This document shows positions 35,007 through 63,184 of a stretch of 64,000 nt of DNA, in pieces (the first letter of the stretch is position 1; every line of letters starts with the position of its first letter). The position numbers and the translations under genes were made by a program. The notes below the pieces were generated by a model, which saw only the letters and a program-made list of their open reading frames with translations, was not told the DNA's origin and did not search any database. Source of the DNA: Pseudomonadota bacterium (GTDB lineage Bacteria > Desulfobacterota > Binatia > UBA9968); assembly GCA_021324155.1 (NCBI GenBank), contig JAJPJQ010000018.1, forward strand, positions 62,001 to 126,000, given 5' to 3'.

Positions 35007-35027
35007 GCCGACTGATCTCGATAACGA

Positions 35028-36934: not shown

Positions 36935-36940
36935 CGAAAG

Positions 36941-37606: not shown

Positions 37607-37616
37607 AGGTCCGCTC

Positions 37617-40446: not shown

Positions 40447-40455
40447 TCCCGCCGC

Positions 40456-41514: not shown

Positions 41515-41549
41515 GAGAAAATTCCTCCTAAGTTTTTTTGCGACTCTGA

Positions 41550-41643
41550 ATTCCCCCCACCTTCTCCCCACGAAGCGTGGCGGAGAGGGAATTTTTTCGA
41601 GGCATTCACCCTCACCCGCTTGCGGGAGAGGCCAGGGGTGAGG
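41550..41643. repeat. Intergenic inverted-repeat element
   Basis: Two imperfect hairpins lie in tandem: one around CCACG-AAG-CGTGG (41569-41581) flanked by complementary CTTCTCC/GGAGAGG, the other from CTCACCCGCTTGCGGG to CCAGGGGTGAG (about 41611-41642). The composition is like dispersed REP/MITE-type elements seen in many proteobacterial genomes. It may also cut transcription between the UbiD and NicX-like genes. Confidence 0.5.
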
Positions 41644-41663
41644 CGGCGAGCGTCACCTGGTGT

Positions 41664-43079: not shown

Positions 43080-43097
43080 TGACGCCTCCGGACCTGA

Positions 43098-43649
43098 CTA
43101 CTTCCCCCGGCGGTCGTATGTCTTTGCGCCGAGATTCTTCTCGTTGTGCACGATCGTAACCTCGATGGGGATGCTGCGGGCGGCGGAAACGAACGCGGGG
43201 CAGCGTTTGGTTGCGACTTCCACAATCGATTGGATCGCGTCGCCGGACGCGGGACTGTCGATACTTACTTTGTAAGCGATGCGCGAGAAGCCGCGCTCGA
43301 CCTCGCGCCCGGCGTCGCCGCCGCCGGCTTCGACATAGCCGGAGATCTCGCCTTCGAGGCGGGAGAGCGCGACGTCGACGACAGCCGCGCTCTTTACGCA
43401 CCAGACTTGATGGCACATCATGATGCCCGCGAGGAAATAGCGCAGCGGCGCGGGGCCGGCATCGTGCCCGCCGTGCACTTCGTCGGAAATGAAGCTGTGA
43501 CCTTCTACGGTCGCGCGGAATTGCAGGCCGTGCAGAGCCTTGCATTGCACGGTTGTCACCGGGCGCTGCGGCTCGCTCTCTTTACGCGCGCTGCGCTGCG
43601 CGAGCTGGCGCGTCGCGATATCTTTCAAATTCGGCTCGACCTTGAACAT
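43098..43649 (-). CDS. OsmC-family protein
   Basis: A 183-residue OsmC-like protein with two reactive-cysteine segments: GIMMCHQVWC near 78 and TKRCPAF near 150. Family members are thiol peroxidases or are fused to hydrolases. It is immediately upstream of the UbiD gene (18 bases), with a strong GGAGG ribosome site. Its job may be protection from peroxide made by the pathway. The 184-base gap upstream (43650-43833) shows nothing certain and may hold a promoter. Confidence 0.85.
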   Translation of the reverse strand: MFKVEPNLKDIATRQLAQRSARKESEPQRPVTTVQCKALHGLQFRATVEGHSFISDEVHGGHDAGPAPLRYFLAGIMMCHQVWCVKSAAVVDVALSRLEGEISGYVEAGGGDAGREVERGFSRIAYKVSIDSPASGDAIQSIVEVATKRCPAFVSAARSIPIEVTIVHNEKNLGAKTYDRRGK

Positions 43650-43833
43650 TTTTCCTCCGCTTGCTCTTCCGCGAACCTATCCAACAGATGGAATACATGC
43701 AAGCGGGTTCCGGCGGCCCGCGAATTTCTCAACATTTGACGAAGCACCACACTCGCTGAAGGAGGCTGCATCGACGGCAAGCTGCTGGCGGATCATCTCT
43801 CTTCGCCGCGGAAATGTTAGGAATCGCAGAGAT

Positions 43834-44988
43834 TTACCCGTACGTCTTCAATACGTGGCGGGCGATCACCATGCGCATCACTTCGGAAGCGCCTTCCGTG
43901 ATGAGCCGGCTCCGCTGGTCGACGAACCACTTGGCGAGCGGCAGGTCGAGCGTGAGGCCGATGCCGCCGTGGATCTGGAGCACGCGATCGACGACGCGCA
44001 CCGACATCTCGTCGGCATAAAGTTTCGCCATGTACGCCTCGTTGCGCGTGTCTTCGCCTTGATCGCTCTTCCACGCGGCTTGATAGACCATGAGCCGCGC
44101 GGCATGCAGCTCGATATAGGAATCGGCGAGCTTCCACTGGATGGCCTGGCGCTCGGCGAGCGGCTTGCCGAATGTGACGCGCTGTTTGGCGTAGCTCGAG
44201 CCCATCTCGATGCAGCGCTCGGCGATGCCGATGGCGCGCGCGCCGTGCCGCAGGCGGCCCACCGACAGCCATTTCTGCGCGAGCTTGAAGCCTTCGCCTT
44301 CCTTGCCGACGAGATTCGCGGCCGGAACCTTCGCATCTTCGAAGACGATTTCGCACGGCTCGTCGCCCATGATCGTCTTGTAGCGCGCGGTGATCTTCAC
44401 GCCCGGCGTGTTCATGTCGACCAGCAGGCAGGAGATGCCTCCGTGCGAGCCTTTGGCCGGGTCGGTTACGACCATGACCTGCGCGAAGTCCGCCTTCTCC
44501 GCATCCGTGATGAAGCGCTTCACGCCGTTGACGATGTAATGATCGCCATGGCGCACGGCGCGCGTCTTCATCGAGCCCGGGTCGGATCCTGCGTCGGGCT
44601 CGGTCTGCGCGAAGCACATCGTCTTTTCGCCTTTGACGACGGGATAAAAATAGCGCTGCTTCTGCTCGTCGTTGAGGCTGTATAAAATCGGCCGCACCTC
44701 GGGGCCGAAGATCGTCTCGCCGCGCGACGGCAGAGCGGCCGTGCGCGCGAGCTGCTCCCAGACGACGACCTGCGCGAGAAGATCGAGTCCGGCGCCGCCG
44801 TACTCCTCCGGCACGTCGAGCATCCATAGGCCCATGTCGCGCGTCTTCTTCTCGAGTCTCGTCTTGACATCCGGCTTCAACTCCACGCCGTCCTTCGACT
44901 GCATTTCGATCGGGATCAATTCCTTATCGACGAATTGCCGGACGGTTTGCTGGAGCATCTGAAGCTCTTCGGGCAGATTGAAATCCAT
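43834..44988 (-). CDS. Acyl-CoA dehydrogenase
   Basis: A 384-residue flavoenzyme of the standard acyl-CoA dehydrogenase length. Landmarks are CFAQTEPDAGSD (about 124), VNGVKRFITDA (about 153), AKQRVTFGKPL (about 266) and the catalytic Glu in ITEGASEVMR (about 365). It introduces a double bond into an acyl-CoA thioester and passes electrons to ETF, which is not in the window. AAGGAG is well placed before the ATG. Acyl chain specificity cannot be read. It sits between binding-protein and OsmC genes. Confidence 0.93.
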   Translation of the reverse strand: MDFNLPEELQMLQQTVRQFVDKELIPIEMQSKDGVELKPDVKTRLEKKTRDMGLWMLDVPEEYGGAGLDLLAQVVVWEQLARTAALPSRGETIFGPEVRPILYSLNDEQKQRYFYPVVKGEKTMCFAQTEPDAGSDPGSMKTRAVRHGDHYIVNGVKRFITDAEKADFAQVMVVTDPAKGSHGGISCLLVDMNTPGVKITARYKTIMGDEPCEIVFEDAKVPAANLVGKEGEGFKLAQKWLSVGRLRHGARAIGIAERCIEMGSSYAKQRVTFGKPLAERQAIQWKLADSYIELHAARLMVYQAAWKSDQGEDTRNEAYMAKLYADEMSVRVVDRVLQIHGGIGLTLDLPLAKWFVDQRSRLITEGASEVMRMVIARHVLKTYG

Positions 44989-45016
44989 AGGGGGCTCCTT
45001 GTGCGCGTTCCCGCCG

Positions 45017-46003
45017 CTAAGGCGCCGGACGCCATTGCTGCGCTTTTAGGTCAGCCATCGTTTTGCGCGTCAGCGAAAAATCGAAAATCTTTCCCAGCGG
45101 TGGCGGCTCCTTATTTTTTTCGAGAAAAGCCGTCAGCGATTTTTTCTGCTGCGGCTCGCCGACGGTGCCGTCCTGCGTCATCCCGGGACGGACCTCGTCG
45201 TAGGTGCGCGCGGCGACGTCGGGCGTGATCTTCAGCGTGCGGGCGAGGAGCGCGATGGTCGGCGACCGATTGGCCTGCGCATACAGGAGGCCTTTCAGGC
45301 TGCCGCGGATGAATTTCTCGATCAGCGCCGGATCCGTCTTGAGCAGACTCGAGCGCGTGATGACCCCGCCCTGGAGATAGACATAATTCGGCTGGCGCAC
45401 GAAGGATACCAGCTCGCGAAAGCCTGCGTCCTCCGCCATGATATAAGCCGACGGCGACAGCATGGCGGCGTCCACCGCGCCGGTTTTCAGCGAGACGAAC
45501 CGCTCCATGCCCGTTCCGACCGCCAGGATGGTCGCGTCTCGTCCCGCTTCGATACCGTGATCATGCAAGAAATCCCTCAGCAGGGAGTCCGGACCGCTGC
45601 CGAAGCTAGAGACGCCGATGCGCCTGCCTTTCAGCTCCGCCACCGAGCGAATCGACGGATTCGAGTATAAGGAGAAATTCGCCTTGTCATAGCTCGTGAA
45701 AAGGAAGGTCATCGGCAGGCCGCGCGTGATCGGCAGTAGCGCCGAGCCGCCGGCGGTGCCGAATTCGACGTTGCCGGCGATAACCGCCTGAATCGAGATT
45801 GCGGCGCGCACGAGGATGAGCTCGACGTCGAGACCCTCCTCGCGCCAGTAGCCTTTTTCCTTGGCGATATAAAACGCGACGGAAGACTCCGACACCGCGG
45901 GTATGGTCGCGTTGATTTTTCGAAGCGCCTGGGCTTCGGCGAAGCGCGGGGCCGCGCCCGAGAGAACCGCGAGGCAAAACAAAAACCAGCGGAGCGGATT
46001 CAT
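45017..46003 (-). CDS. NMT1-like ABC substrate-binding protein, no permease
   Basis: A 328-residue exported protein starting MNPLRWFLFC, chosen because its ATG overlaps the Mo-subunit stop (ATGA). The signal ends RFAEA. The fold is SsuA/NMT1-like (SSVAFYIAKEKGYWREEGLDVELILV, then SVAELKGRRIGVSSFGSGPDSLLRDFL). The ligand is unknown. Its coupling to a Mo subunit gene is strong evidence that the pathway's substrate or a precursor is what it binds. Confidence 0.85.
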   Translation of the reverse strand: MNPLRWFLFCLAVLSGAAPRFAEAQALRKINATIPAVSESSVAFYIAKEKGYWREEGLDVELILVRAAISIQAVIAGNVEFGTAGGSALLPITRGLPMTFLFTSYDKANFSLYSNPSIRSVAELKGRRIGVSSFGSGPDSLLRDFLHDHGIEAGRDATILAVGTGMERFVSLKTGAVDAAMLSPSAYIMAEDAGFRELVSFVRQPNYVYLQGGVITRSSLLKTDPALIEKFIRGSLKGLLYAQANRSPTIALLARTLKITPDVAARTYDEVRPGMTQDGTVGEPQQKKSLTAFLEKNKEPPPLGKIFDFSLTRKTMADLKAQQWRPAP

Positions 46004-48225
46004 GCGGAGCGGTCCTTTCGATATTTCAGCGCGGAGTAAATCTTTTCCGCCGTGATCGGCGCGTCGAGGATCTGCACGCCGATTGCGTCGTAGACCGCAT
46101 TGGCGATCGCTGCGGGCGTCGGCGTCGTCGTGCACTCGCCGATGGGTTTGCTTTGAAACGGCCCCGGTCCGGCGGGGTTGTAGACATGGATGGTCTCGAG
46201 CTCCGGGATATCGCGCACGCAGGGAATTTTATAGTCGCCCAGGTTCGTCGTTGTGATCCGGCCCTCGGAATCGGGGAGGTTCTCGATCGTCGCGAAACCG
46301 AGCCCCTGCATCATACCGCCCTCGATCTGTCCCTGGTGCGCGATCGGGTTGATGATCGTGCCGACTTCGTTGAACGAAGTGATTTTCAGATGAACGATTT
46401 TTCCCGTCTCGGGATCGATCTGAATGTCGGCGGCCTGGCCGAAGAAAGAGAGCGTGCCGTCTCTGTCCGAATGGATGCGCCGTCCGAATTCCTTCATCTC
46501 GCCGGTTTCGGCAGCGAGCGCGCCGAAGCTGAGCTTCTTCCCCGGCGCCGACAGCATCCCGCGACCGACATGGATCGCGGCCTCCGGCAGTTCCCAGCGG
46601 TGCGCCGCCTCGGTAATCATTTTTTCACGGAGCTTAGTCGCGGCGATCGTCGCCGCCGTGCCGGCGAGAAAAGTCACGCGGCTTCCGCCGAGGGCGATAT
46701 CCGTCGCGAACGTGTCGGTGTCGCCCGAGATGATCGTGACCTCGTCGGCGGCGATGCCGAAGATCTCAGCCACGATCTGGCGGAGAATCGTGTGCGCGCC
46801 GGTGCCCGTGTCGGTCACGGTCGTCAGGATGAAAATCTTGCCCTGCCGGTCCATCCCCACTTCGAGATTGCATTCTCCGGGGCCGATGTTGCCGATGCAC
46901 AGAGCAACGCCGCGACCGGCGAATGGCTTCTTGCCGGAAGCCCGCTTCGGCCGCATGCGGTCGACGACCGTGATGCCCATGTCGCTGTCGATTCGGTGGC
47001 CGCCGGCCAGCATGTCGCCGATACGCAGTACGTTCTTCCGTCGGAATTCCCACGGGTCCATGCCGATCTGGCGAGCGATGTAGTCGGTGTGCGATTCCAC
47101 GGCGAAATAAATCTGCGGATCGCCGGGGCCGCGCATGTGGCCGCTCGGAATCAAATTCGTGTAGATCGAGAAGGCATCCACGGCGGAGTTAGGAATACGG
47201 TAGGCGCCGGCGGCGTGCCGGGCGCCTGGAAGATTGATCGTCGCGTTCGGCTTAAAGCCGGCGTATGCGCCGCTGTTGAATACGACGCGGACTTCGCGGG
47301 CCCACAGCGTGCCGTCTTTTTTAACCCCGCTCTTGATCCGGATGGTCGAAGGATGGCGCGGATTTCCCGCGCTCAGCTCCTCGCCGTAGGTCATCACCAT
47401 CTTCACCGGCCTGCCGGCGGCGCGCGAGAGATAATAAGCGAGCGGGATGTCCATCACCGAACCCTTGGCGCCGAAATCGCCGCCGACGGGGCCGAGCTGA
47501 ATCAAAATCTTCGCCGGTTCGACGCCGAGAATCTCCGCCAGATACTGTCGCGTCTGAAACGGAACCTTATTCGACGACCAGACGGATATGCGATCGCCAT
47601 TGCCGGCATCGACGACGCAGGAATGCGGCTCGAGATAGGCCTGATGGACACGGTGTGTGGTGAATGTCTGCTCGAAGACGAAGTCGGATTCGGCAAAGCC
47701 TGCCGCGGCGTCGCCGAGACGCCATTTAACGTGCGAGTGGGTATTGGGCAGCGACGGCATGGGCTGCGGCGCGTTGATATAGCCGCCGAGATTTTCGTGC
47801 AGCACAGGCGCGCCTTCTCGCATCGCCGACGCCGCGTCGAAGACCGCCGGAAGCTCAGCATACTCGACATCGATCAGCGCCGCCGCCTCTTCGGCGATTG
47901 CAGCGCTCTCCGCCGCTACCGCGGCGACTTTCTCACCGACGAAGCGCACACGGTCGCGCGCCAGCACCGGCATGTCGCGGAGCTGGCGGCCGAAAAGCTT
48001 TTCGGATACGTCGGCCGCCGTGATAACCGCCAGCACGCCGGGAACGGCGCGCGCGCGCGACGCATCGATTCTGACGATGCGCGCGTGGGGCAGGGGACTG
48101 CGCAGAGTTTTTCCCCAGGCGATGTTTGGCAGCGAGCGGTCGGCGGTATAGACCGCCTTTCCGGTCACCTTATGCCTGCCTTCGAATTTGGGCTCGGATT
48201 TGCCGATGGCGGAATATTTTTTCAA
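46000..48225 (-). CDS. Molybdenum hydroxylase large subunit, set 3 (orphan)
   Basis: A 741-residue Mo-cofactor subunit with a TTG start (MKKYSAIGK). It has the hammerhead domain (VTGKAVYTADRSLP), PVGGDFGAKG near 240, GHMRGPGDPQ near 345 and SKPIGECTTTP with the catalytic Glu near 710. No FeS or FAD subunit gene adjoins it; the nearest are those of set 2, 8-10 kb away on the same strand. It may borrow them or use partners encoded elsewhere. Substrate unknown; the CO dehydrogenase loop is absent. Confidence 0.9.
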   Translation of the reverse strand: MKKYSAIGKSEPKFEGRHKVTGKAVYTADRSLPNIAWGKTLRSPLPHARIVRIDASRARAVPGVLAVITAADVSEKLFGRQLRDMPVLARDRVRFVGEKVAAVAAESAAIAEEAAALIDVEYAELPAVFDAASAMREGAPVLHENLGGYINAPQPMPSLPNTHSHVKWRLGDAAAGFAESDFVFEQTFTTHRVHQAYLEPHSCVVDAGNGDRISVWSSNKVPFQTRQYLAEILGVEPAKILIQLGPVGGDFGAKGSVMDIPLAYYLSRAAGRPVKMVMTYGEELSAGNPRHPSTIRIKSGVKKDGTLWAREVRVVFNSGAYAGFKPNATINLPGARHAAGAYRIPNSAVDAFSIYTNLIPSGHMRGPGDPQIYFAVESHTDYIARQIGMDPWEFRRKNVLRIGDMLAGGHRIDSDMGITVVDRMRPKRASGKKPFAGRGVALCIGNIGPGECNLEVGMDRQGKIFILTTVTDTGTGAHTILRQIVAEIFGIAADEVTIISGDTDTFATDIALGGSRVTFLAGTAATIAATKLREKMITEAAHRWELPEAAIHVGRGMLSAPGKKLSFGALAAETGEMKEFGRRIHSDRDGTLSFFGQAADIQIDPETGKIVHLKITSFNEVGTIINPIAHQGQIEGGMMQGLGFATIENLPDSEGRITTTNLGDYKIPCVRDIPELETIHVYNPAGPGPFQSKPIGECTTTPTPAAIANAVYDAIGVQILDAPITAEKIYSALKYRKDRSA

Positions 48226-48270
48226 GCTCGATTCCCCGTGAGTGATGGAGTCATAGTCTGACAGGCCGCG

Positions 48271-49365
48271 TTAGCAATGGTGGAATATGTCGCAGTACCA
48301 GCGGGCGTAGTCCGCGTATTGCGGACCGAACTTCTCCGGGTTCACGACCAGGTATTTCGGCTTGACCAGCTCTGGATAGAGATGCTTGAAGCCCTGGATG
48401 GTGGAGTTCCTGCCGAATTTCCCTACGAGAATTTCCTGTCCCTCAGACAGCAGCCAGTCGATCATGAGAGCCGCGGCGTGCGGATGCGCGCTGTGTTTCG
48501 CCAACAGCACATACTTGGGAGTGGACAAGACCGGCTCCAGCAGCACGGCTTCCACGGGAGCTCCCCTGCGCTTCAGCTCCACAACATTATGCCCCAGAAG
48601 CCACGGCGCCATGGCGAATTCTCCGGCGGCCAGCAGCTGCGCTTGCAGCGTGTGCCCCTCGCGCATCGCGGGCGCGTTTTTCGCCAACCGGGTGAAATAG
48701 GCGAAAGTTTTTTCCTTGCCCCAGAATTCCAGCAGCGTTCCGAAGAGCTCCTGGTCGGCGCTGCTGAGGGAAAGTTTGCCTTTATAAATCGGATTCAAGA
48801 GATCGTCGTATGTTTTCGGCATCTCGTTTTTCGAAATGCTCGGCGTGTGGATTCCCAAGGCCATGACCGAATGAAAGTAGCCTGTCCAGTACCCTTCTTT
48901 ATCGGCATAGCCCTCGAGAACGGATTTACGGAGCGGCGAGAGGTACGGGTCGAGCAATTGGCTTTGCTTCAATTTGAACGCGGAGTCGGGGGAAATCTCG
49001 ATGACGTCGACGGCATGACTTCCCGCGCGCGCTTCCGCCAGTACCTTGGAAGACACGCCGTTCGTCGTGGCCCGGAAATTGTCGACTTGGAGAAACGCGT
49101 ATTTCTTCTTGAAGCGCTCAAGCAGCTGCTGCATCACGGCGACATTGGTCGTGCCGTAGAGAACGATCTTACCTTCGCGCTTCGCGCCCTCGATAAGCTG
49201 CGACTCGCGGGCGGGGTCTTGAAGGCCCTGGAAGTGCTGGAGGACTTGGCCCGCGGTTTTGCCAAGAGCGGCGCCGCCGGCGGCATGCAAAAAGACAAGC
49301 AAGAAAAATAATTTCGAGAAGCGATAGGTGATGCGTCTTGGATTCGGACGAGCGTGGCGGGTCAT
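48271..49365 (-). CDS. Extracellular solute-binding protein (iron-type fold), no permease
   Basis: A 364-residue exported protein with a signal (RFSKLFFLLVFLHAAGGAALG). It has an iron/thiamine-type binding fold: GKIVLYGTTNVAVMQQLLERFKK, then DVIEISPDSAFKLKQSQLL. It is similar in layout to the protein at 31.8-32.9 kb, sharing the WLLSEGQE-type and HPHAAALMIDW motifs. It starts 9 bases after the second TPP-subunit gene. No permease or ATPase is nearby. Confidence 0.83.
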   Translation of the reverse strand: MTRHARPNPRRITYRFSKLFFLLVFLHAAGGAALGKTAGQVLQHFQGLQDPARESQLIEGAKREGKIVLYGTTNVAVMQQLLERFKKKYAFLQVDNFRATTNGVSSKVLAEARAGSHAVDVIEISPDSAFKLKQSQLLDPYLSPLRKSVLEGYADKEGYWTGYFHSVMALGIHTPSISKNEMPKTYDDLLNPIYKGKLSLSSADQELFGTLLEFWGKEKTFAYFTRLAKNAPAMREGHTLQAQLLAAGEFAMAPWLLGHNVVELKRRGAPVEAVLLEPVLSTPKYVLLAKHSAHPHAAALMIDWLLSEGQEILVGKFGRNSTIQGFKHLYPELVKPKYLVVNPEKFGPQYADYARWYCDIFHHC

Positions 49366-49374
49366 TGTTGCGCT

Positions 49375-49974
49375 TTATCCACGGCCCAAAAAGATCGGCT
49401 TTCCTTCCGTCTTTTCGATATAACGAACGAAGCGATATTTATTTTCCAGCAGGTCCATGTTGGTGCGCTGGATTTTACGATGGCCGCGGCTCTCTTCGAC
49501 TTTCGCGACAATGAAGTTGAGGCCGCTTCCGGTCAGAGCCGGGAGCGCGGCTTTCTTGAACGTCTCGAGATCGCGCACCGTCACCGCGTCCTCGATGCCG
49601 GCGCCGCGAGCGATGATCTCGAGGTCGGTCTTGCCGGCGGTCGCTGTCGGCTCGCTGATGCGCGTGCCGCTATAAATCTGGTTGTCGAAGACGAACACGG
49701 AGAGATTTTGTGGGCCGAGATTTGCCACCGTCGGAAGATTGAAAAGCGACAGCAGGATGCTGCCGTCGGATTCCAGGACGACAACCCGCCGATGGGGCAA
49801 GGCCATGGCAAGGCCGCAGCCCACCGCCAACGCGTTGCCCATCGAGCCGAGCAGCAGATTGCCCTCGCGGTTGGAAAGGTGTCCCCACTCCACGCGCTGA
49901 CCGCTGAGCGACGTCACGACGAGGTGATCGTCGATGAGCGGCGCCATCCACTCGAAGCATTCGTATCGGATCAT
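49375..49974 (-). CDS. TPP decarboxylase-like beta (cofactor-binding) subunit, pair 2
   Basis: A 199-residue protein with the C-terminal TPP-enzyme fold, like ComE (sulfopyruvate decarboxylase beta) and phosphonopyruvate decarboxylase. The cofactor/Mg motif begins ESDGS near 77 and ends FVFDNQIYSG near 110; the first Gly of the usual GDG is Ser. It overlaps its alpha partner by ATGA. The pair should decarboxylate a 2-oxo acid, but the substrate is unknown. Confidence 0.86.
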   Translation of the reverse strand: MIRYECFEWMAPLIDDHLVVTSLSGQRVEWGHLSNREGNLLLGSMGNALAVGCGLAMALPHRRVVVLESDGSILLSLFNLPTVANLGPQNLSVFVFDNQIYSGTRISEPTATAGKTDLEIIARGAGIEDAVTVRDLETFKKAALPALTGSGLNFIVAKVEESRGHRKIQRTNMDLLENKYRFVRYIEKTEGKPIFLGRG

Positions 49975-50477
49975 ACCGTGAACTCCCCCGTAAAGAGCAG
50001 AACGACCGGCAGCTTGAGCGCGTGCATCATGCGCACGGCGTCTTTGATGCGCGTTTCCAGATTCTCGCCGTCGGTGACGATCTGGTATTCGATTCCGAGC
50101 GCCTCAAGAACGGGAATCATCCGGGTGCCGCGGCGAACGTACAAGAAGCTGTTTCTCTTGTCCGCGGCGCTGCCGACGTACGATACCAGGAGAAGCATTG
50201 GTATGCCGAAGCGCTCGGCGATCGTCAGCAGGTTGTAGGTAGACACGAACACGCCGGTGCCCTCCATATACGATGCGACCTGCTTGCCGCCCAGGGCCGC
50301 GCCTGCGGCGATCGAAACTCCCTCGGCTTCGCTCGCCACCGGCGCGAGCTGAAAAAATTCATCCTGGCGCATGAGCGGTAGGATCTGGCTCAAGCGCGTT
50401 TCCGGCAGGTAGGTGACGAAATTGATGCCGGCCGCTTTCAGGCCGTTGACGAGTTTACTGGCGAGCTCCGGTTCCAC
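49971..50477 (-). CDS. TPP decarboxylase-like alpha (N-terminal) subunit, pair 2
   Basis: A 168-residue protein with the N-terminal TPP-enzyme domain. It has the activating Glu in ASEAEGVSIAAGAALGGK (about 47-64) and the MEGTGVFVSTYNLLT segment. The size matches the alpha subunit of ComDE-type sulfopyruvate decarboxylase (about 169 residues). It makes the active site with the following beta subunit. It is the third gene of the minus-strand arm; 39 bases separate it from pair 1. Confidence 0.86.
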   Translation of the reverse strand: MEPELASKLVNGLKAAGINFVTYLPETRLSQILPLMRQDEFFQLAPVASEAEGVSIAAGAALGGKQVASYMEGTGVFVSTYNLLTIAERFGIPMLLLVSYVGSAADKRNSFLYVRRGTRMIPVLEALGIEYQIVTDGENLETRIKDAVRMMHALKLPVVLLFTGEFTV

Positions 50478-50516
50478 GATGGTAACTCCTTCAGAGACGA
50501 AGCCGTTGGGATTTCG

Positions 50517-51116
50517 TCAGCCGCGGCCGCGAAACACCGCCTTGCCTTCGGTGCGTTCGATATAGCGGACGAAGCGGTACTTGTTCTCCGTCAAGTCGGC
50601 AGTCGATCGCTCGGCCTGCCGGTGCTCGAGCGTTTCTTCCACTTTAGCGACCACAAATCCCAGTCCTTGGCGACTAAGCGCCCCTTGGGACTCGCGCTTG
50701 AAGCTATCGAGATCGCGCACCTCCACGGCGTGCGAGATGCCGCAGTCACGGGCAACTGCGGCAAGATCGGTTCCGGCCGCCGTGGCGGACGGTCGGCTGA
50801 TTCGGCTGCCGCTGTATTTCTCGTTGTCGAAGACGAAGACGACTAGGTTGTCCGGCTTTAGTGCTCCTAGAGTCGGTAAGTTGAACAGCGACAGCAGCAC
50901 GCTGCCGTCGGATTCTATGACGATAACTTTGCGATGGGGGAGGCCGAGCGCCATGCCGAGGCCGACGCCGAGCGCGTTGCCCATCGACCCCAGCAGAAGA
51001 TTTCCGTCATGTTCCTTCGTCAGATGGCCCCAGATCCACTGGCCGCTGACGGATGGGACGACGAGCTGGTCTGTGATGTGCGGCACGAGAGATTCGAGAC
51101 AGGCGCTGCGATTCAT
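50517..51116 (-). CDS. TPP decarboxylase-like beta subunit, pair 1
   Basis: A 199-residue cofactor-binding subunit closely parallel to that of pair 2, with ESDGSVLLSLFNL and FVFDNEKYSG as cofactor/Mg motif. It starts MNRSACLES and overlaps the alpha subunit by ATGA. It begins the first of two consecutive pairs, presumably a tandem duplication with divergence. Confidence 0.86.
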   Translation of the reverse strand: MNRSACLESLVPHITDQLVVPSVSGQWIWGHLTKEHDGNLLLGSMGNALGVGLGMALGLPHRKVIVIESDGSVLLSLFNLPTLGALKPDNLVVFVFDNEKYSGSRISRPSATAAGTDLAAVARDCGISHAVEVRDLDSFKRESQGALSRQGLGFVVAKVEETLEHRQAERSTADLTENKYRFVRYIERTEGKAVFRGRG

Positions 51117-51619
51117 AGTGTAAAAGCTCCCGTGAAGAGCAGCGCGACGGGCTGCTTCAGCGCATGCATCATTCGCGTCGCATTCTGTAGCTGCGTCTCA
51201 ACTTGCGCCGGGTCCTCGGCGATCTGATATTCGATGTTGAGCGCGCGCAGCTGTTGCTCGGTGCGGAGTCCCGTCGGCGCGAAACGAAAACTGTTTTTCT
51301 GATCCGCCATGCTGCCGACGTAAGAGATAAGAAGGAGAATCGGTGTGCCGACGCGGATGCTGACGGTAAGCAAATTGTACGAGCAGACGAACAGGCCGGT
51401 CCCTTCCATATAGACGGCCGGCTGCTTGCCGACGAGAGCGGCACCCGATGCGATTGTGACCGCCTCGGCTTCGCTCGACGTTGGAACGAGTTTGAAAGCG
51501 GAATCCGCTTCGAGCAGCGGAAGAATGCGGCTCAGCCGCGTCTCGGGGAGGTAGGTAACGAAATCGATGCCGGCGCCCTTCAGCGCCGCGGCCGTTTTTT
51601 GTGCGACGTCTTTTTCCAT
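51113..51619 (-). CDS. TPP decarboxylase-like alpha subunit, pair 1 (first gene of the minus arm)
   Basis: A 168-residue N-terminal TPP-domain subunit with SSEAEAVTIASGAALVGK and MEGTGLFVCSYNLLT. It is the first gene after the shared divergent promoter; the ATG at 51619 lies about 50 bases from the predicted minus-strand transcription start. Together with pair 2 it gives two neighbouring decarboxylase candidates; neither substrate is known. Confidence 0.86.
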   Translation of the reverse strand: MEKDVAQKTAAALKGAGIDFVTYLPETRLSRILPLLEADSAFKLVPTSSEAEAVTIASGAALVGKQPAVYMEGTGLFVCSYNLLTVSIRVGTPILLLISYVGSMADQKNSFRFAPTGLRTEQQLRALNIEYQIAEDPAQVETQLQNATRMMHALKQPVALLFTGAFTL

Positions 51620-51631
51620 GCGAGAACGTGC

Positions 51632-51704
51632 TTGACAACTACATGCAGTTCTGAATAAAACGCTGCATGTCGCTGGCTATATAACAGCGTCCGAGACGTG
51701 TCAA
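51632..51704. promoter_or_regulatory. Overlapping divergent promoters with central operator
   Basis: Plus strand: TTGACA (51632-51637), then AATAAA 16 bases on. Minus strand: TTGACA (51704-51699), then TATAGC 17 bases on. Between them is the perfect inverted repeat ACATGCAG (51641-51648) / CTGCATGT (51663-51670), centres 22 bases apart, two helical turns. A GntR-family dimer bound here would cover both promoters. The arrangement is typical of an autoregulated catabolic switch. Confidence 0.6.
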
Positions 51705-51706
51705 CA

Positions 51707-52393
51707 ATGGAAGCCTCTAACGGCAAGAATCTCACCGAAGAAGCCTACCAGAAGATCAAAGGCTTCATCCTGAGCAGCGAGATTTATCCACGCCAGAAGA
51801 TCGTCATCGAGGAGCTCGCGCGACAAATGGGGGTGAGCCGCACGCCGATCCGCGAGGCGATGAACCGTTTGGTGAACGAAGGGTACGTCACGCACGTCTG
51901 GAACCGTGGCTTCTCCGTCAAGGAAATTACCGCCGACGAAGTCGAGGAGCTTTACGGCGCGCGGGAGGCGCTGGAGCCTTATCTCGCCGAGGAAGCCGCG
52001 CGCCGAATCAGCAAAAGCGAAGTCCAGGACCTCGAGCGGCTGCTGAAGCAATACGGCGAATTTGTCGAGCGCCGGCCGCGCCGCCAGCGCCGGCTGGTCG
52101 ACCTCGACTTCCATTCGAAGATCGGCAAGATTGCCGGTAACTCCTATCTGCAGAGCATCCTCGGCGAAGTCTTCGAGCGTATCGTCCTCAAACAGAGGGT
52201 GGCGGCCGGCCAGCTCGACCGCGGCAAGGATGCCTGGCTGCAACACCGCGCGATTCTTGTCGCAATCCGCGACGGCAAGCCGAAGGAAGCGCGCCGGGCT
52301 GCGCTTTTTCACGTGCGGAAATCGAAACAGCTCGCGATGCTTCGCCTCCAGGAAGAAGCCGAGTATTTGAAACAGCTAAGAGTCGTCGGCTAA
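51707..52393 (+). CDS. GntR-family (FCD) transcriptional regulator
   Basis: A 228-residue regulator. A winged helix (residues about 8-72, with ARQMGVSRTPIREAMNRLVNEGYV) precedes an all-helical FCD ligand-binding domain (about 85-215), which often binds a metal through Asp/His residues; DLDFHSKIGKIAGN and WLQHRAIL are candidates. It is first in the plus arm, and its promoter overlaps that of the minus arm. It probably represses both until an organic acid appears. The ATG at 51707 is favoured over a GTG at 51698. Confidence 0.9.
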   Translation: MEASNGKNLTEEAYQKIKGFILSSEIYPRQKIVIEELARQMGVSRTPIREAMNRLVNEGYVTHVWNRGFSVKEITADEVEELYGAREALEPYLAEEAARRISKSEVQDLERLLKQYGEFVERRPRRQRRLVDLDFHSKIGKIAGNSYLQSILGEVFERIVLKQRVAAGQLDRGKDAWLQHRAILVAIRDGKPKEARRAALFHVRKSKQLAMLRLQEEAEYLKQLRVVG

Positions 52394-52420: not shown

Positions 52421-54184
52421 ATGAACCAACCGCACTGCGACCCCATTTCCGTTGCGGTCATCTCCAACCGACTCGCCGCGATCACGAGAGAGATGGGGCA
52501 GATCATGCTGCTCACCTCGCGCTCTCCGATCTTCAGCGAATCGAGAGATTTCGTTACGGCGATCTTCGACGGCCAAGGCCGTCTCATTGCGCAGACATCC
52601 TATATACCCGTGCTGCTCGGGGCGATCCCCTTTGCTTTGCAAGCGATCCGCGACCGCTATCACGGCAAAGACCTCCACCCCGGCGATGTCATCGTCGCCA
52701 ACGATCCGTATCTCGGCAACAGCCATCTCCCCGACGTCACCATTGCGCGGCCGGTTTTTTATCGCGGCGAGCTCGTCTTCTGGGCCGTCACGAAAGGGCA
52801 CCAGGCCGACCTCGGCGGCGCCGGCGTCGCCGGCTATAACCCGGAGGCTACGACGGTTTGGGAGGAGGGTCTGCGGCTGCCGCCGATGAAGCTCTACAGC
52901 CAGGGCGAATACCAGCGCGATCTCTGGGACTTCATTCTCCTCAACGTCAAAAGCCGCCACTTGGTAGAGGGGGATTTGCATTGTCAGATAGGCGCTGCGA
53001 CGCGCGGCGAAGAGGCGGTGCTCGAGCTTTTGGATCGTTACGGGTGGGACGCTGCCGCAGCGGCGATTGAGGCGTATATTGCGGCAACCGAGAAGTCGAT
53101 GTCGGCGGCAATCAAAAAAATCCCCAACGGTATTTATGCCGGGGAAAGCTTCCTCGACAACGACGGTGTCGAGATGGAAAAGGCGCCGGGCATCCGCGTC
53201 GCCGTGAAAGTGGAAGACGAGACGCTCACCTTCGATTTCGCCGGCTCCGATCCTCAAACGCGCGGTTTCGTCAACAGCCCGTTCGCCAACACGGCGTCGG
53301 TTTGTTTCCAGGCGCTTTTCGCATGCATCGGCGCAGCGATCCCGATCAATTTCGGCTCGCTGCGGCCGATTCGCATCGTCGCGCCGGAAGGGTCGATCGT
53401 CAACTGCCGCGCGCCGGCGCCGACGACGGCGTCTACGCTCGTTACCTGCGCGGCGATCGCCGAAGCGATCTGGATCGCGCTCGCCGAGGCGATTCCGTCG
53501 CAAACCCAGTCCGGCTGGGGCCGGCGCTGCGCCCCGATGAGCGCGGGAACCAATCCGCGCACCGGCCGCCGGTTCGTATGCACGCATCACAACTGCAAAG
53601 GCGGCTCGGGCGCCACGGAAGGATATGATGGCTGGAACCATACCGGCCCTGTGAGCAACATGGGCGGATCGCGCGCGACCGATCCGGAGATCTTCGAGCT
53701 TGCATACCCCTACCGTCTCTTCGAATACGAGCTGGCGCCCGACACCGGAGGCGCCGGCCAATGGCGCGGCGGTACCGGCGCGGTGCTGCGCTGGCGCGTA
53801 GAGTCGCCGGACGTGCAATGCGTCACGGTCGGCTCGGGCATGCTCGAGCAAACGCGCGCCTTCGGCCTTTTCGGCGGTAAGCCGGGGTCGTTGCCGATCA
53901 TGCGCGTCGTCGGCGGCGACGGCGCAAGCAGAAAGCTCCCGCTCAACCAATTCTCGGAAGTCAAAGAAGGCGATGTCTTCGAACTCGTGTCTCAAGGCGG
54001 CGGAGGCTTCGGCGATCCCTTCATGCGCTCGCCCGAGCGAGTGCGCGACGACGTCGTCAACGGACTCGTATCGATGGAGAAAGCGGCGCAGGAGTACGGC
54101 GTGATGCTCGAGCGGCGCGGGCGCGAGATAGTAATCGATCGAGATGCCACCGCTAAAAAGCGCGCAGCACGAACAAAGGCCTAG
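52421..54184 (+). CDS. hyuB: Hydantoinase B / oxoprolinase beta-type subunit
   Basis: A 587-residue HyuB-family protein; DVIVANDPYLGNSHLPD near 90, VVTKGHQADLGG-type residues near 125 and the GGGGFGDP segment near 525 are family landmarks. HyuA/HyuB pairs include N-methylhydantoinase, 5-oxoprolinase and ATP-dependent carboxylases of acetone or acetophenone. Its partner hyuA is separated by a binding-protein gene. Starting 28 bases after the regulator, it is the first structural gene of the plus arm. Confidence 0.92.
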   Translation: MNQPHCDPISVAVISNRLAAITREMGQIMLLTSRSPIFSESRDFVTAIFDGQGRLIAQTSYIPVLLGAIPFALQAIRDRYHGKDLHPGDVIVANDPYLGNSHLPDVTIARPVFYRGELVFWAVTKGHQADLGGAGVAGYNPEATTVWEEGLRLPPMKLYSQGEYQRDLWDFILLNVKSRHLVEGDLHCQIGAATRGEEAVLELLDRYGWDAAAAAIEAYIAATEKSMSAAIKKIPNGIYAGESFLDNDGVEMEKAPGIRVAVKVEDETLTFDFAGSDPQTRGFVNSPFANTASVCFQALFACIGAAIPINFGSLRPIRIVAPEGSIVNCRAPAPTTASTLVTCAAIAEAIWIALAEAIPSQTQSGWGRRCAPMSAGTNPRTGRRFVCTHHNCKGGSGATEGYDGWNHTGPVSNMGGSRATDPEIFELAYPYRLFEYELAPDTGGAGQWRGGTGAVLRWRVESPDVQCVTVGSGMLEQTRAFGLFGGKPGSLPIMRVVGGDGASRKLPLNQFSEVKEGDVFELVSQGGGGFGDPFMRSPERVRDDVVNGLVSMEKAAQEYGVMLERRGREIVIDRDATAKKRAARTKA

Positions 54185-54207
54185 AGCAACAATACCGAGA
54201 GAGACGA

Positions 54208-55194
54208 ATGACAAAAAAGCTTTTACTCTGCCTAACGATAACCGCGATCTTTCTGCAATCGCCGGCAATGGCTCAAGCGCCCAAAACAACCTTCAATGTA
54301 GGGTTCTCGGCGTTTTCCGCCGCGTTCATGCCGGCCTTTGTTGCGGATCAGGCCGGCTACTTCGCGCAGGAAGGCATCGGCACGCGGCTCGTGTTTTTTC
54401 AAAGCGGCGTGCAGCTCATGCAATCGGTCATCGCCGGCGACACGCACATCGGCATGGGCTCCGCGCCGGAGCTGGTGACGGCGACGAATGCGGGCGCGAA
54501 GGTGCACGGTTTTTGGGGCATCTCCAATCTCATGCCGTATGCGCTCATCTCGCGCCCCAATATCAAAACGATCGCCGAGCTGAAGGGAAAAAAGATCGCG
54601 GTGAGCGCGCGAGGCTCCTTAAGTGAATTTCTGGCGAGCTACGTTCTCAAAAACAAGGGTCTCGATCCGTCGAAAGACGTCGTCTACCTTCCGCTCGGCG
54701 GGGTGCCGACGCGGTTCGCCGCGCTGCTGTCCGGCTCCGCGGACGCGAGTCTCATCAGCGCAGCGCAGTTCGACAAGGGACGCAAGGCAGGCCTCAACTT
54801 TCTCTTTATGCTCGCCGATCTGATCCCGGAGTGGCCGCAGGACGTAATCTATTTGAAGGACGAGTTCGTCGCCAGCCGCGATCCGGAGTTCCGCGCCTTC
54901 TTACGCGCTTACCGGCGCGCCGTCGCGACCTCAAAGAAAAACCCCGACATCGCCATCGCCGCAATGCAGAAGGCGATGCGTTTCGATGAGCCGACCGCGC
55001 GCGACGGCTACAAAGCCTACGTGGCGTCGCTGCCGGACGACGGCCGGATCGGCGAGAAGGGGTTCGAGCTGCTCGTGGACCAGATGTTCCAGGAGAATAC
55101 GATCAAACGGCGGCTCACGATGACCGACCTGATCGATTACCGTTATATCCATGAAGCGCAGAAAAATAATAACGCACGATCGGTACGCGACTGA
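54208..55194 (+). CDS. NMT1-like ABC substrate-binding protein between hyuB and hyuA
   Basis: A 328-residue exported protein with a clear signal (MTKKLLLCLTITAIFLQSPAMAQA). The body is SsuA/NMT1-like: AFMPAFVADQAGYFAQEGIGTRLVFF, then KTIAELKGKKIAVSARGSLSEFLASY. It overlaps the hyuA start by one base. Placement between the two hydantoinase/carboxylase subunits ties its ligand to that enzyme's substrate. No permease gene is present. Confidence 0.86.
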   Translation: MTKKLLLCLTITAIFLQSPAMAQAPKTTFNVGFSAFSAAFMPAFVADQAGYFAQEGIGTRLVFFQSGVQLMQSVIAGDTHIGMGSAPELVTATNAGAKVHGFWGISNLMPYALISRPNIKTIAELKGKKIAVSARGSLSEFLASYVLKNKGLDPSKDVVYLPLGGVPTRFAALLSGSADASLISAAQFDKGRKAGLNFLFMLADLIPEWPQDVIYLKDEFVASRDPEFRAFLRAYRRAVATSKKNPDIAIAAMQKAMRFDEPTARDGYKAYVASLPDDGRIGEKGFELLVDQMFQENTIKRRLTMTDLIDYRYIHEAQKNNNARSVRD

Positions 55195-57281
55195 TGGCGG
55201 CCCGCGATCATTTCGATATCGGGATCGACGTCGGCGGAACTTTTACCGATTGCGTCATGATCGACGCGGCGGGGCGAAGCTTCGTCGAGAAGACCTTCAC
55301 GACGCCGCGCGACCCGTCCGAGGGCGTGCTCGCGGGCCTGGAAAAGCTCGCGACGAAGGCGAATGCGCCGCTCGCGGATTTTCTCCGCTGCGTTCGGCGC
55401 ATTGTCCACGGCACGACGATCACGACGAACGCCGTGCTCACCGGCAACGGCGTCAAGACGGGCTTCGTTACGACGCAGGGCTTCCGCGATGTGCTATTGA
55501 TGCGTCGCGGCGTGCGTGAAAACCAATTCAATTCGAAGATCGATCCGCCGCCGCCGCTCGTGCCGCGGAGCCTCACGGTGACCGTTGCCGAGCGCGTCGA
55601 TTGCGTCGGCGCCGAGACCGTTCCCCTCGACCGCGAGAGTGCGCGCCGGGCGATCCGCGACCTGAAGGAGCAAGGCGTCGAGTCCGTCGCCGTCAGTTTC
55701 CTGTTTTCTTTTCTCAATCCGAAGCATGAAGCAGAGATCGCAGAACTACTGAAAGAGGATTTTCCGGAAGCCTACATCTCGCTCTCGACGCAGGTCCTGC
55801 CGCAGCTGCGCGCGTACGAGCGCCACAGCACGACCGCGCTGAACGCTTACGTCGGTCCGTTGCTCGATCGCTATCTGCGGCGTTTAACCGAACGGCTCGA
55901 AAAAGCCGGATTCAGCGGACGGCTGCTCATCATGCAATCGAACGGCGGCGTCATGGCGCCCGAGACCGCCGCCCGCTTCGCCTGTCGTACGCTGCTCTCG
56001 GGACCCGCCGGAGGACCGGTCGCGGCCATTTTTTACGGTGGGCGCGCCGGACGTGGCGACGTGATCGCGATGGACATGGGAGGCACGAGCTTCGACGTGT
56101 CGCTTATCAAGGCGGGCGAAGCGAGCTTTACCACAACCGGCGATGTCGGCGGTCACGCTATGGCGTTCCCCGTGCTCGACATTCGCACCGTCGGCGCAGG
56201 CGGCGGCAGCATCGCCTGGCTCGACGACGGCGGCGTTCTCCACGTAGGCCCGGCCAGCGCCGGCGCGGATCCAGGTCCGATCTGCTACGGGCGCGGCGGA
56301 AAGGCCCCGACGGTCACCGACGCCGATCTCGTGCTCGGGTATTTGGGCGCCGACGATTTCTTAGGCGGCGAGTTCAGGCTCGACATTGACGGCGCTCGCA
56401 AGGGAATCCAGGAGCGCATCGCAGCGCCGTTGGGTTTAGATCTCATTACAGCCGCCGAGGGTATTCACCGGATCGTCAACGCCACGATGGCCGACGCGAT
56501 CCGGCTCGTCTCGATCGCGCAGGGCTACGACCCGCGTCAATGTACGCTCGTGGTAGCGGGCGGCGCCGGCGCGGTTCACGCCGCAGCGATCGCGCGCGAG
56601 CTCGGCATCACGAGCCTTCTCATCCCGCGCGAAGCGTCGGTTTTCTGCGCGGCGGGCATGCTGCTTTCCGATTTGAAGCACGACTATGTGCGCACGCTTT
56701 CCGGCGAGCTCGGGACCATCCCGCCCGAGAAAATCGCGGTGATCTATGCTGACATGTCTACCGAGGCGCTGCACACGCTCGCGGAAGAAGGCATCGGCGA
56801 GAGAGAAGCGCAGATTTCATACGGAGTCGATCTCAAATACGTCGGGCAGTTCCATGAAGTGACTATCCCGTTCGCGTCGGCTTCGACCGACGTCGAGCGG
56901 CTCAAGTCCGATTTCGCCGCGCGCCATCTGAAGCTTTACGGCTACAATCTTCCCGGCCAGCCGGTCGAAGCGCTTCACTGGCGCTTGACGGCAATCGGGC
57001 GCACCGAGCGGCCGCGTTTTGCGCGCGCAGCATCGGTTTCGAGCAAGCCGGCGCCGACAAAACGCGACGTGGTTTTCGACGGCCGAAAAACCTCGACGGA
57101 CGTCTATCGCGGCGGCGAGCTGAATCCCGGAGCGTCGTTCGAAGGCCCCGCGATTATCGAAGAGCCCACGACGACGATCGTGATTCCGCCGGCGTGCAGG
57201 CTTGCAGTTAACGAATTCGGCGATTACGAGCTGACGCTAGCGTCCGAACAGGCCGCGCCCACCATCGCGGCGGCGAGTTGA
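55194..57281 (+). CDS. hyuA: Hydantoinase A / oxoprolinase alpha-type subunit (ATPase)
   Basis: A 695-residue HyuA protein. N-terminal IGIDVGGTFTDCV is the phosphate-binding loop of the actin-like ATPase fold; GTTITTNAVL near 75, DMGGTSFDVSLI near 300 and GPASAGADPGPICYGRGG near 350 are family marks. It would use ATP to activate a carbonyl or lactam for hydrolysis or carboxylation with HyuB. It starts at the last base of the binding-protein stop. Confidence 0.93.
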   Translation: MAARDHFDIGIDVGGTFTDCVMIDAAGRSFVEKTFTTPRDPSEGVLAGLEKLATKANAPLADFLRCVRRIVHGTTITTNAVLTGNGVKTGFVTTQGFRDVLLMRRGVRENQFNSKIDPPPPLVPRSLTVTVAERVDCVGAETVPLDRESARRAIRDLKEQGVESVAVSFLFSFLNPKHEAEIAELLKEDFPEAYISLSTQVLPQLRAYERHSTTALNAYVGPLLDRYLRRLTERLEKAGFSGRLLIMQSNGGVMAPETAARFACRTLLSGPAGGPVAAIFYGGRAGRGDVIAMDMGGTSFDVSLIKAGEASFTTTGDVGGHAMAFPVLDIRTVGAGGGSIAWLDDGGVLHVGPASAGADPGPICYGRGGKAPTVTDADLVLGYLGADDFLGGEFRLDIDGARKGIQERIAAPLGLDLITAAEGIHRIVNATMADAIRLVSIAQGYDPRQCTLVVAGGAGAVHAAAIARELGITSLLIPREASVFCAAGMLLSDLKHDYVRTLSGELGTIPPEKIAVIYADMSTEALHTLAEEGIGEREAQISYGVDLKYVGQFHEVTIPFASASTDVERLKSDFAARHLKLYGYNLPGQPVEALHWRLTAIGRTERPRFARAASVSSKPAPTKRDVVFDGRKTSTDVYRGGELNPGASFEGPAIIEEPTTTIVIPPACRLAVNEFGDYELTLASEQAAPTIAAAS

Positions 57282-57286
57282 GGAAT

Positions 57287-58924
57287 ATGAAAGCTCCAAA
57301 GGACGTGCGCGAGCATATCAAGAACTTGGAGGAGCGCGGCCTACTGGTTCGCGTCTCGCGGCCGTCCAACAAGGATACCGAGATCCACCCGCTCGTGCGC
57401 TGGCAGTTTCGCGGCGGCGTCCGCGAGGAAGACCGGAAGGCATTTCTCTTCGAGAACGTCGTTGACGATCGTCGTAAATACGATGGCTCCGTGCTCGTCG
57501 GCGGGCTGGCCGCGTCGCGCTGGGTTTACGCGCTCGGCATGGGCTGCGAGCCGAGTGAGATCGTCGAGAAGTGGCAGAAGGCGCTTGCGAAGCCGGTCGA
57601 GCCGGCGCTCGTCGAGAGCGGCCCGGCGCAGGAAGTCGTCCATATGGGCGACGCGCTCGACCGCGAAGGCGGCGGCCTCGACGCGATCGCCGTGCCGATT
57701 TCCACGCCTGGCTTCGACAACGCGCCGTATTTCACCTGCGCGCAGTGGATCACCAAAGATTTGGAGACCGGCATTCGCAACGTCGGCAACTACCGCGCCC
57801 AGGTGAAAGGCCGCCGCCGGACGGGCGTCTGCCCGGGGCCGCAGGCGAATCAGCAGTTGAATATTCATTGGCGGCAAGCGGCGGCGCGCGGCAAACATCT
57901 CGAAGCCGCCCTGGTCGTCGGCGGGCCGCCGGTCGTGACCCACGCCGCCGTGCAAAAGATTCCGTACGGCGTCGACGAGCTGGCGGTCGCCGGCGCGCTC
58001 GCGGGCGAGCCGATCCCGCTGGTCAAGTGCAAGACCGTCGACGTCGAAGTGCCCGCGACGGCCGAGATCGTGCTCGAAGGCATCATCCGCACCGATTTCC
58101 TCGAGCCCGAGGGCGCCTTCGGTGAGTCGCACGGCTACATTCACCCGCGCATCATGAATCCGGTGTTCGAGATCAGCTGCATCACGCACCGTAAAAACCC
58201 GGTCTTTGTCGGCATATTGAGCCAAGTGACGCCGAGCGAGTCGAGCAAGCTCAAAGAGATCGGCATGGAGGCGATGCTGCTACGCTACCTGCGCGAGCAC
58301 TCGAGCAATGAGTGGGTGACCGGCGTCGGCTGTTACGAGCCGCTGGTCAACCTAAGGCGCTACGTCGTCGTCCAGTGCAAGCGCGGCGCGCCGCAGTACG
58401 AAGTGTGGCGCGCGCTCCACGGCGTGCTCGCGTTTCGCCAGGAGCTCGGCAAATACGTCGTCGCAGTCGACGATGACATCGATCCGAAGGACGGCGATGC
58501 GATCAACTGGGCGATCACGATGCGCTGCGAGCCGTCGAAGGACGTGCGCATCGTCGAGGGCCGTGAGAAAGGCCATGCGCCGCCGTTCCGCGTGCACGGC
58601 GAATCGATCGACAAAATGGAAGAGGCCGAAGAGCGCTCGGCGGAATACTCCGTCATGATGATGAATGCGACACTCAAGGAGCCGTTCCCGCCCGTTGCGC
58701 TGCCGTCGCAGGAATATATGGAGCGGGCGAAGGATATCTGGGAAAACGAACTCAAGCTGCCACCGCTGCGGCCGCAATCGCCGTGGTACGGCTACTCGCT
58801 CGGTCAGTGGGACGAAGAGTCCGTCGATGAGGCGGCGGCGGCGATGAAGGGTGAATATTACAAAACCGGCGACAAACTCGCCGGGCGTCGCGTGCCGGTG
58901 AAGATCAAGCGAGGGGATAAATAG
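57287..58924 (+). CDS. UbiD-family decarboxylase 2
   Basis: A 545-residue UbiD protein, about 70 residues longer than copy 1. Landmarks are RTGVCPGPQANQQLNIHW near 180, LEPEGAFGESHGYI near 277 and AVDDDIDPKDGDAINWAITMR near 390. It would decarboxylate (or carboxylate) an aromatic acid with prFMN. The ATG at 57287 lies 5 bases after the hyuA stop, with GAGGA close before it; a TTG at 57278 is also possible. It starts the metabolic half of the plus arm after the hydantoinase unit. Confidence 0.9.
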   Translation: MKAPKDVREHIKNLEERGLLVRVSRPSNKDTEIHPLVRWQFRGGVREEDRKAFLFENVVDDRRKYDGSVLVGGLAASRWVYALGMGCEPSEIVEKWQKALAKPVEPALVESGPAQEVVHMGDALDREGGGLDAIAVPISTPGFDNAPYFTCAQWITKDLETGIRNVGNYRAQVKGRRRTGVCPGPQANQQLNIHWRQAAARGKHLEAALVVGGPPVVTHAAVQKIPYGVDELAVAGALAGEPIPLVKCKTVDVEVPATAEIVLEGIIRTDFLEPEGAFGESHGYIHPRIMNPVFEISCITHRKNPVFVGILSQVTPSESSKLKEIGMEAMLLRYLREHSSNEWVTGVGCYEPLVNLRRYVVVQCKRGAPQYEVWRALHGVLAFRQELGKYVVAVDDDIDPKDGDAINWAITMRCEPSKDVRIVEGREKGHAPPFRVHGESIDKMEEAEERSAEYSVMMMNATLKEPFPPVALPSQEYMERAKDIWENELKLPPLRPQSPWYGYSLGQWDEESVDEAAAAMKGEYYKTGDKLAGRRVPVKIKRGDK

Positions 58925-58932
58925 AACCCGCG

Positions 58933-62054: not shown

Positions 62055-62064
62055 AGGCGGTGTG

Positions 62065-63170: not shown

Positions 63171-63184
63171 AGCGAGAGGTCAAT

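Follow-up and report, generated by a model that had tools for sequence, protein, structure and literature searches.

Two long gene arms run away from each other in the window, as we call the whole 64,000-nucleotide stretch of DNA analysed here, with a gap of 87 bp between the minus-strand ATG (51619) and the plus-strand ATG (51707). The question raised by this locus is how both arms are controlled from the gap. A sequence-only reading had proposed that perfect TTGACA hexamers with reasonable -10 elements lie on both strands, that an 8-bp inverted repeat sits in the middle, and that one GntR/FCD dimer bound there could block both promoters, making the 20-kb minus arm and the 12-kb plus arm a single regulon. 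Based on a comparison of orthologous loci, the block is most likely a pair of facing promoters (P+ and P-) that would be repressed by the adjacent FCD regulator. The features of the locus are collected in Table 1.

Table 1. Coordinates of the features in and around the gap between the divergent arms (window positions; 3/3, in all three orthologous loci).
Feature	Position	Strand	Remarks
Whole conserved block	51632-51704		73 bp in the window, 75 bp in G016, 73 bp in G022
P+ -35, TTGACA	51632-51637	+	toward the FCD regulator and hydantoinase/UbiD arm; invariant 3/3
P+ best -10, TAAAAC	51656-51661	+	predicted; 18-bp spacer, 4/6; TAAAA invariant 3/3
P- -35, TTGACA	51704-51699	-	toward the TPP-enzyme/molybdopterin-oxidase arm; invariant 3/3
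P- best -10, TATAGC	51681-51676	-	predicted; 17-bp spacer, 4/6; CTATATAAC invariant 3/3
Inverted repeat ACATGCAG-N14-CTGCATGT	51641-51670		perfect in the window only
Repeat arm ACATGCAG	51641-51648		14 bp between the arms
Repeat arm CTGCATGT	51663-51670		
Candidate operator site 1, AACTACATGCAGTT	51637-51650		12/14 palindromic; just inside the P+ -35; TACATG invariant 3/3
Candidate operator site 2 or half-site, CTGCATGT	51663-51670		24 bp centre-to-centre from site 1; TGCAT invariant 3/3
GntR/FCD (FadR-subfamily) regulator	51707-52393	+	Pfam FCD 1.1e-22, GntR 6.1e-15; both above cut-off
Plus arm	52421-63931	+	largest gap 27 bp; syntenic in G022, 66-86% identical
First two minus-arm genes, split TPP decarboxylase N and C halves	50517-51619	-	70% and 81% identical in G022
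Minus arm, remainder	31812-50477	-	gaps up to 184 bp; putative co-transcription

Both TTGACA hexamers are perfect, as proposed. The best hexamer pairs, TTGACA-18-TAAAAC on the plus strand and TTGACA-17-TATAGC on the minus strand, reach 10 of 12 matches each. Both -10 elements match at 4/6 and lack the final T. A consensus promoter scan of the gap, which demands this final T, returned no promoter because neither -10 ends in T. Counting 7 bases on from the -10 places the predicted +1 at 51668 for P+ and at 51669 for P-, that is, on neighbouring bases. As predicted, P+ and P- would overlap fully as DNA while their transcripts would hardly overlap. In the 4.8-Mb genome the pattern TTGACA-N46-70-TGTCAA was found 4 times and the reversed-pattern control 0 times; the three other places overlap long ORFs, and that of the block lies between divergent genes.

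The family is represented by 25 genomes, mostly multi-contig drafts, and two of them contain a close orthologue of the regulator besides that of the window: G016 (75%) and G022 (70%). The ATG start of the regulator was fixed by orthologue alignment, and the upstream regions of both orthologues align with the window along the entire block. No further close orthologue was found in the other 10 genomes of the order (35 in all) or in 395 genomes of the phylum (E 1e-50), and a wider contig search returned as the single close relative the G016 locus, JACQUW010000153.1, from a metagenome-assembled 'Deltaproteobacteria bacterium'. The comparison thus comprises three orthologous loci only. Of the 71 gap-free columns, 49 show the same base at every locus. 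Among fourfold-degenerate sites in the regulator gene this holds for 5 of 58, and pairwise agreement of 22-31% there indicates saturation. The corresponding Fisher p value of ~7e-13 is post hoc, the block having been picked and aligned for similarity.

Conservation follows the outline of the proposed promoters. From the start of TTGACA to that of TGTCAA the distance is 67 bp in the window, 69 bp in G016 and 67 bp in G022, and spacing is nearly fixed for both TTGACA hexamers, TACATG, TGAATAAAA, TGCAT and CTATATAAC, while the flanks vary. TGTCAA precedes the regulator ATG by 2 bp (window), 14 bp (G016) or 7 bp (G022), and TTGACA is 12 bp from the minus start codon in the window versus 50 bp in G022; the G016 contig starts 6 bases left of the block, and its divergent side lies outside the sequence. 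Invariant runs are TTGACAA, TACATG, TTnTGAATAAAA (with one variable base), TGCAT, CTATATAAC and GTGTCAAC, with the left core TACATG and the right core TGCAT at a fixed distance. The P- spacer is 17 bp in the window and 18 bp in G016 and G022. The conserved stretch is bounded by the two TTGACA hexamers, matching the facing-promoter prediction, and in all three loci these TTGACA belong to the top-scoring hexamer pair of their strand. The hexamers of both strands are kept throughout, the starts being predicted ones. The orthologue comparison makes a strong promoter call out of a weak one: the -10 elements fail the scan, and the block is kept at saturated divergence. This conservation is strong evidence and lifts the block well above chance. 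Since it persists where neutral divergence is saturated, the 73-bp block is, on this comparative evidence, a real regulatory element.

Unusual conservation of a non-coding block could also point to a structured RNA leader or riboswitch. This candidate was rejected and is very improbable, as there is no Rfam match up to E 1 and the RNAalifold consensus of -4.25 kcal/mol contains 1 pair out of 18 in which both partners changed, although with three sequences the latter is a weak test.

Another explanation, which we find distinctly unlikely, is that only one promoter is real, most likely P- or else P+ alone, and that the other TTGACA is kept for a different purpose, for example as a protein-binding site. 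The weak -10 hexamers on both strands would fit this, as would the outer inverted repeat that the two TTGACA on opposite strands form. However, both hexamers are invariant in all three loci while neutral sites are saturated, and both genes require a promoter within the 87-bp gap. A third arrangement is suggested by E. coli bidirectional promoters, which overlap on opposite strands, with one polymerase excluding the other; they share a -10, point away from each other and often have starts 10, 18 or 23 bp apart, 18 bp being the commonest distance and 10 and 23 bp also common in the data given in PMC12825309. Here, the invariant CTATATAAC could act as a symmetrical -10 in both directions, reading TATAAC on the plus strand (51680-51685, 5/6) and TATAGC on the minus strand with predicted starts at 51692 and 51669, 23 bp apart, and P+ as drawn would then not be the main promoter of the regulator. 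We consider this unlikely, since TATAAC has no -35 hexamer at the right distance, the best partners available to it fall well short of the TTGACA pairs in score, and the invariant TTGACA at 51632 and TGAATAAAA are left unexplained. In the facing arrangement, by contrast with bidirectional promoters, the two promoters are directed toward one another, with their -35 hexamers on the outer sides. Both kinds of promoter could exist side by side.

The inverted repeat was said to sit in the middle; its centre (51655.5) is actually 12.5 bp to the left of that of the promoter pair (51668.0). The repeat extends over the P+ spacer, -10 and start as well as the ~30 first transcribed bases of P-. Complementarity of the arms declines from 8/8 in the window to 6/8 in G016 and 4/8 in G022. 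When the 87-bp region was dinucleotide-shuffled 5000 times, 131 of the shuffles had an equally good repeat (8-bp perfect inverted repeat, spacer <=20); 74 such repeat starts occur in the 64-kb window, or ~0.10 per 87 bp. By itself, the inverted repeat is weak evidence. The shuffle figure is also what speaks for chance promoter-like strings in intergenic DNA, an explanation that is largely refuted already by conservation at three loci at saturated divergence and that we regard as hardly credible.

Operators of the FadR subfamily are A/T-rich palindromes of 10-11 bp with the consensus TKGT-N2/3-ACMA, the GT and AC of the two boxes being 2 or 3 nt apart, according to the description in PMC4494728. 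The proposal of one dimer on the 8-bp repeat is not supported, because the repeat is not kept in the relatives and, with 30 bp, has the wrong size for a FadR-type site; we rejected it as a single operator. Two CATG-centred candidate sites 24 bp apart seem to fit the FadR family better, a reading that is favoured because the palindromes of the subfamily are 10-11 bp long. Candidate site 2 is conserved only in half. Against control by the FCD regulator, the sites match the boxes only loosely, with CTAC/GCAG in the AACTACATGCAGTT palindrome and a core of TAC-AT-GCA where the subfamily has TKGT/ACMA, and the 8-bp repeat is not kept. Among FadR-subfamily divergons that include the transcription factor gene and have double sites, a constant inter-site distance was found in 29 of 100, which the account in PMC4494728 interprets as joint control of both operons.

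Within the window, AACTACATGCAGTT-like sites do not exceed chance: 4 matches, of which 2 are site 1 itself, compare with a shuffle mean of 1.39, and 6 of 100 shuffles reach 4. For TTGACAANTACATG at <=3 mismatches, 9 matches were found versus a shuffle mean of 4.70. The pattern ACATGN18-22CATGT was rejected as genome-wide evidence, with 3 places in the genome and 3 in the reversed control; the other two places lie on C44 within a frame of >1000 codons and on C49 within a 92-aa ORF.

The regulator itself belongs to the FCD (FadR) subfamily of the GntR family, with an N-terminal GntR winged helix and a C-terminal FCD domain. A search of solved structures yielded distant relatives only and was given no weight. 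FCD paralogues (~40%) of the family have TTGCAT-N10-ATGCAA repeats near their own starts. Such repeats occur in 14 of 24 paralogue upstream regions at >=5/6, 11 of them perfect, in a scan that required a TGCA or TGTA core and is hence biased that way; it left out L002-L004, L006-L008, L023 and L032 (own distant paralogues, far relatives, or a clipped upstream region). The paralogue repeats have the TGCA core of the block, with inward half-sites and cores 16 bp apart versus 20 bp in the block. They support the link between regulator and block by kinship, not as proof. A second FCD group (upstream regions L011-L022, L025, L027 and L028) has a TTGACA and a conserved GGATCGGATAGGTTC-like stretch, and in most of its members a repeat of the TTGCAT-N10-ATGCAA type separates the promoter from the start codon.

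The poor match to the FadR-subfamily consensus and the putative nature of FCD binding leave some room for the block being the operator of a different regulator, or for the FCD protein being an activator instead of a repressor. We judge this quite unlikely: repressors are typically placed in this way, in the spacer and in the -10 and start regions, the block accompanies the FCD gene in all three loci even though the genes behind it differ in G016, and regulator paralogues have related TGCA-core repeats.

Facing promoters repressed by the adjacent FCD regulator are discussed here as the leading explanation, and we think it fairly probable that the locus is a divergon in which the regulator binds one or both CATG sites and represses both overlapping promoters until a pathway compound releases it. 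Two sigma70-type promoters would face each other and overlap completely, P+ driving the FCD regulator and the hydantoinase/UbiD operon and P- the split TPP-decarboxylase operon. As P+ and P- cover the same DNA and their predicted starts are adjacent, the block would presumably admit one RNA polymerase at a time, and this sharing of promoter DNA predicts competition between the arms upon derepression. The candidate sites take in the P+ spacer, -10 and start, and relative to P- they lie between about +1 and +30. From there the regulator could block polymerase at P+, and thereby repress its own gene, and block initiation or escape at P-. Release would come from a pathway compound, probably an acidic one, a suggestion drawn from the FadR subfamily as described in PMC4494728.

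Face-to-face promoters of divergent operons with a common operator region are found in E. coli argECBH, a biosynthetic system controlled by the ArgR hexamer through ARG boxes, whereas the present cluster is catabolic and would employ an FCD dimer. The promoters of the E. coli bioABFCD divergon also face each other, and its operator is a long BirA palindrome. There, one BirA operator between the divergent genes represses both transcripts, as summarized in PMC5438404. The present locus is similar in having one operator, here a candidate, between divergent genes, and differs in that the bioABFCD regulator is of the BirA family and encoded outside the divergon. FadR-subfamily divergons with the transcription factor gene, with single or double sites and shared control, are documented in PMC4494728 and resemble the present locus in that the FCD gene is in one arm and the (here candidate) sites lie between the arms; the portion of that source considered here describes site positions, not facing overlapping promoters. 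In Streptomyces coelicolor, scbA and the repressor gene scbR have face-to-face promoters whose transcripts overlap by 53 bp, with two operators, in the account of PMC3134472. Unlike in that pair, collision or antisense effects are not expected here because the predicted starts are adjacent. The arrangement as such is known, and the present locus adds a probable example from an FCD-controlled catabolic cluster. With the block, this uncharacterised cluster of a little-studied bacterium gains a candidate operator as well as a candidate regulon.

In the window, genes follow closely on one another in both arms, with the reservation that some ORF starts are uncertain and give negative gaps in the packing figures. 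Plus-arm genes encode hydantoinase B, an NMT1 binding protein, hydantoinase A, UbiD, an NDP-forming acyl-CoA synthetase-like protein, a luciferase-like protein, a TPP N/C pair and an isochorismatase. The minus arm opens with the split TPP pair, which is sulfopyruvate/phosphonopyruvate-decarboxylase-like below NCBIfam cut-offs, followed by a second TPP pair, binding proteins, molybdopterin oxidases, an acyl-CoA dehydrogenase, UbiD and cupins; down to 31812 its widest gaps measure 184 and 92 bp, and the next larger one is of 626 bp. In G022, too, the split TPP pair is divergent to the regulator; of the minus arm, the contig includes this pair and then breaks off early in a molybdopterin-oxidase gene. 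A conserved control region with a putative operator thus lies between divergent genes in the window and in G022, as in a shared-operator divergon. G016 has a different set of genes behind its regulator (NMT1 28%, acyl-CoA dehydrogenase, hydantoinases 47%). That the block is kept there nonetheless indicates that it goes with the regulator and not with one enzyme set.

Regarding the sequence-only reading, its facing promoters and candidate shared operator are supported by TTGACA hexamers, -10 regions and TACATG/TGCAT cores kept in all three loci and by the syntenic arms of G022. Its single regulon of 20 and 12 kb agrees with the tight packing of both arms in the window but is limited by the different genes behind the regulator in G016 and by a G022 minus arm that is seen only at its start.

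The window contains three split TPP decarboxylase copies with separate N and C genes, two in the minus arm (49375-51619) and one near the plus-arm end (62062-63170). It also encodes three large xanthine dehydrogenase-type subunits of molybdopterin-binding oxidases, all on the minus strand, at 46000-48225, 38074-40446 and 13811-16090; an FeS subunit (37617-38081) and a FAD subunit (35028-35903) are found near the second of these.

The regulon may extend past the two arms, as a further candidate site exists on contig C48. Using a sequence model of the whole block, no second full copy was found in the 25 genomes, and the next best match in the own genome is a weak one on C48 (E 0.25, G000:C48:60776-60809, minus strand). 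At this match, TTGACAATTGCATGCA precedes a solute-binding-protein gene, at a distance of 106 bp from its ATG, and the core is positioned as in the block. The pattern TTGACAAN0-4ATGCA occurs at 3 places in the own genome, C48 being one and the third lying on C5, versus 0 in the control. In G022 the orthologue of the C48 gene (73-75% over ~155 residues) is part of the plus arm, flanked there by the luciferase-like and TPP genes. The G016 orthologue (74%) comes immediately after the orthologue, 72% identical, of the window's luciferase-like gene and is followed by the same NMT1 gene; its upstream region contains no TTGACAATTGCATGCA-type site, as it stands directly behind the luciferase-like gene. 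No paralogue of the FCD regulator was detected on C48 at E 0.001. We treat as a lead that a gene which is an operon member in a relative and stands apart here has a predicted promoter with the same core, a single site that was found post hoc.

Taking the facing promoters under FCD repression one step further, the block could be a locked cassette of 73-75 bp: facing promoters with adjacent starts would make the arms mutually exclusive per firing, a double FCD site would close both, the cassette would travel with the regulator as genes are exchanged (as in G016), and the operator would also be placed at displaced operon members (as on C48). This extension is possible, and we put it forward tentatively.

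At G000:C48:60776-60809 (L053, L079), TTGACAATTGCATGCATTTTCACATAA lies ahead of a run of solute-binding-protein, NMT1 and solute-binding-protein genes. The plus-arm solute-binding-protein orthologue in G022 (G022:C163:11326-11799) is short, with a frame of 182 codons compared with 359 aa, and is possibly a broken gene. Genomes of the family carry very large sets of solute-binding-protein paralogues; G016, for instance, has 33 matches at E 1e-60.
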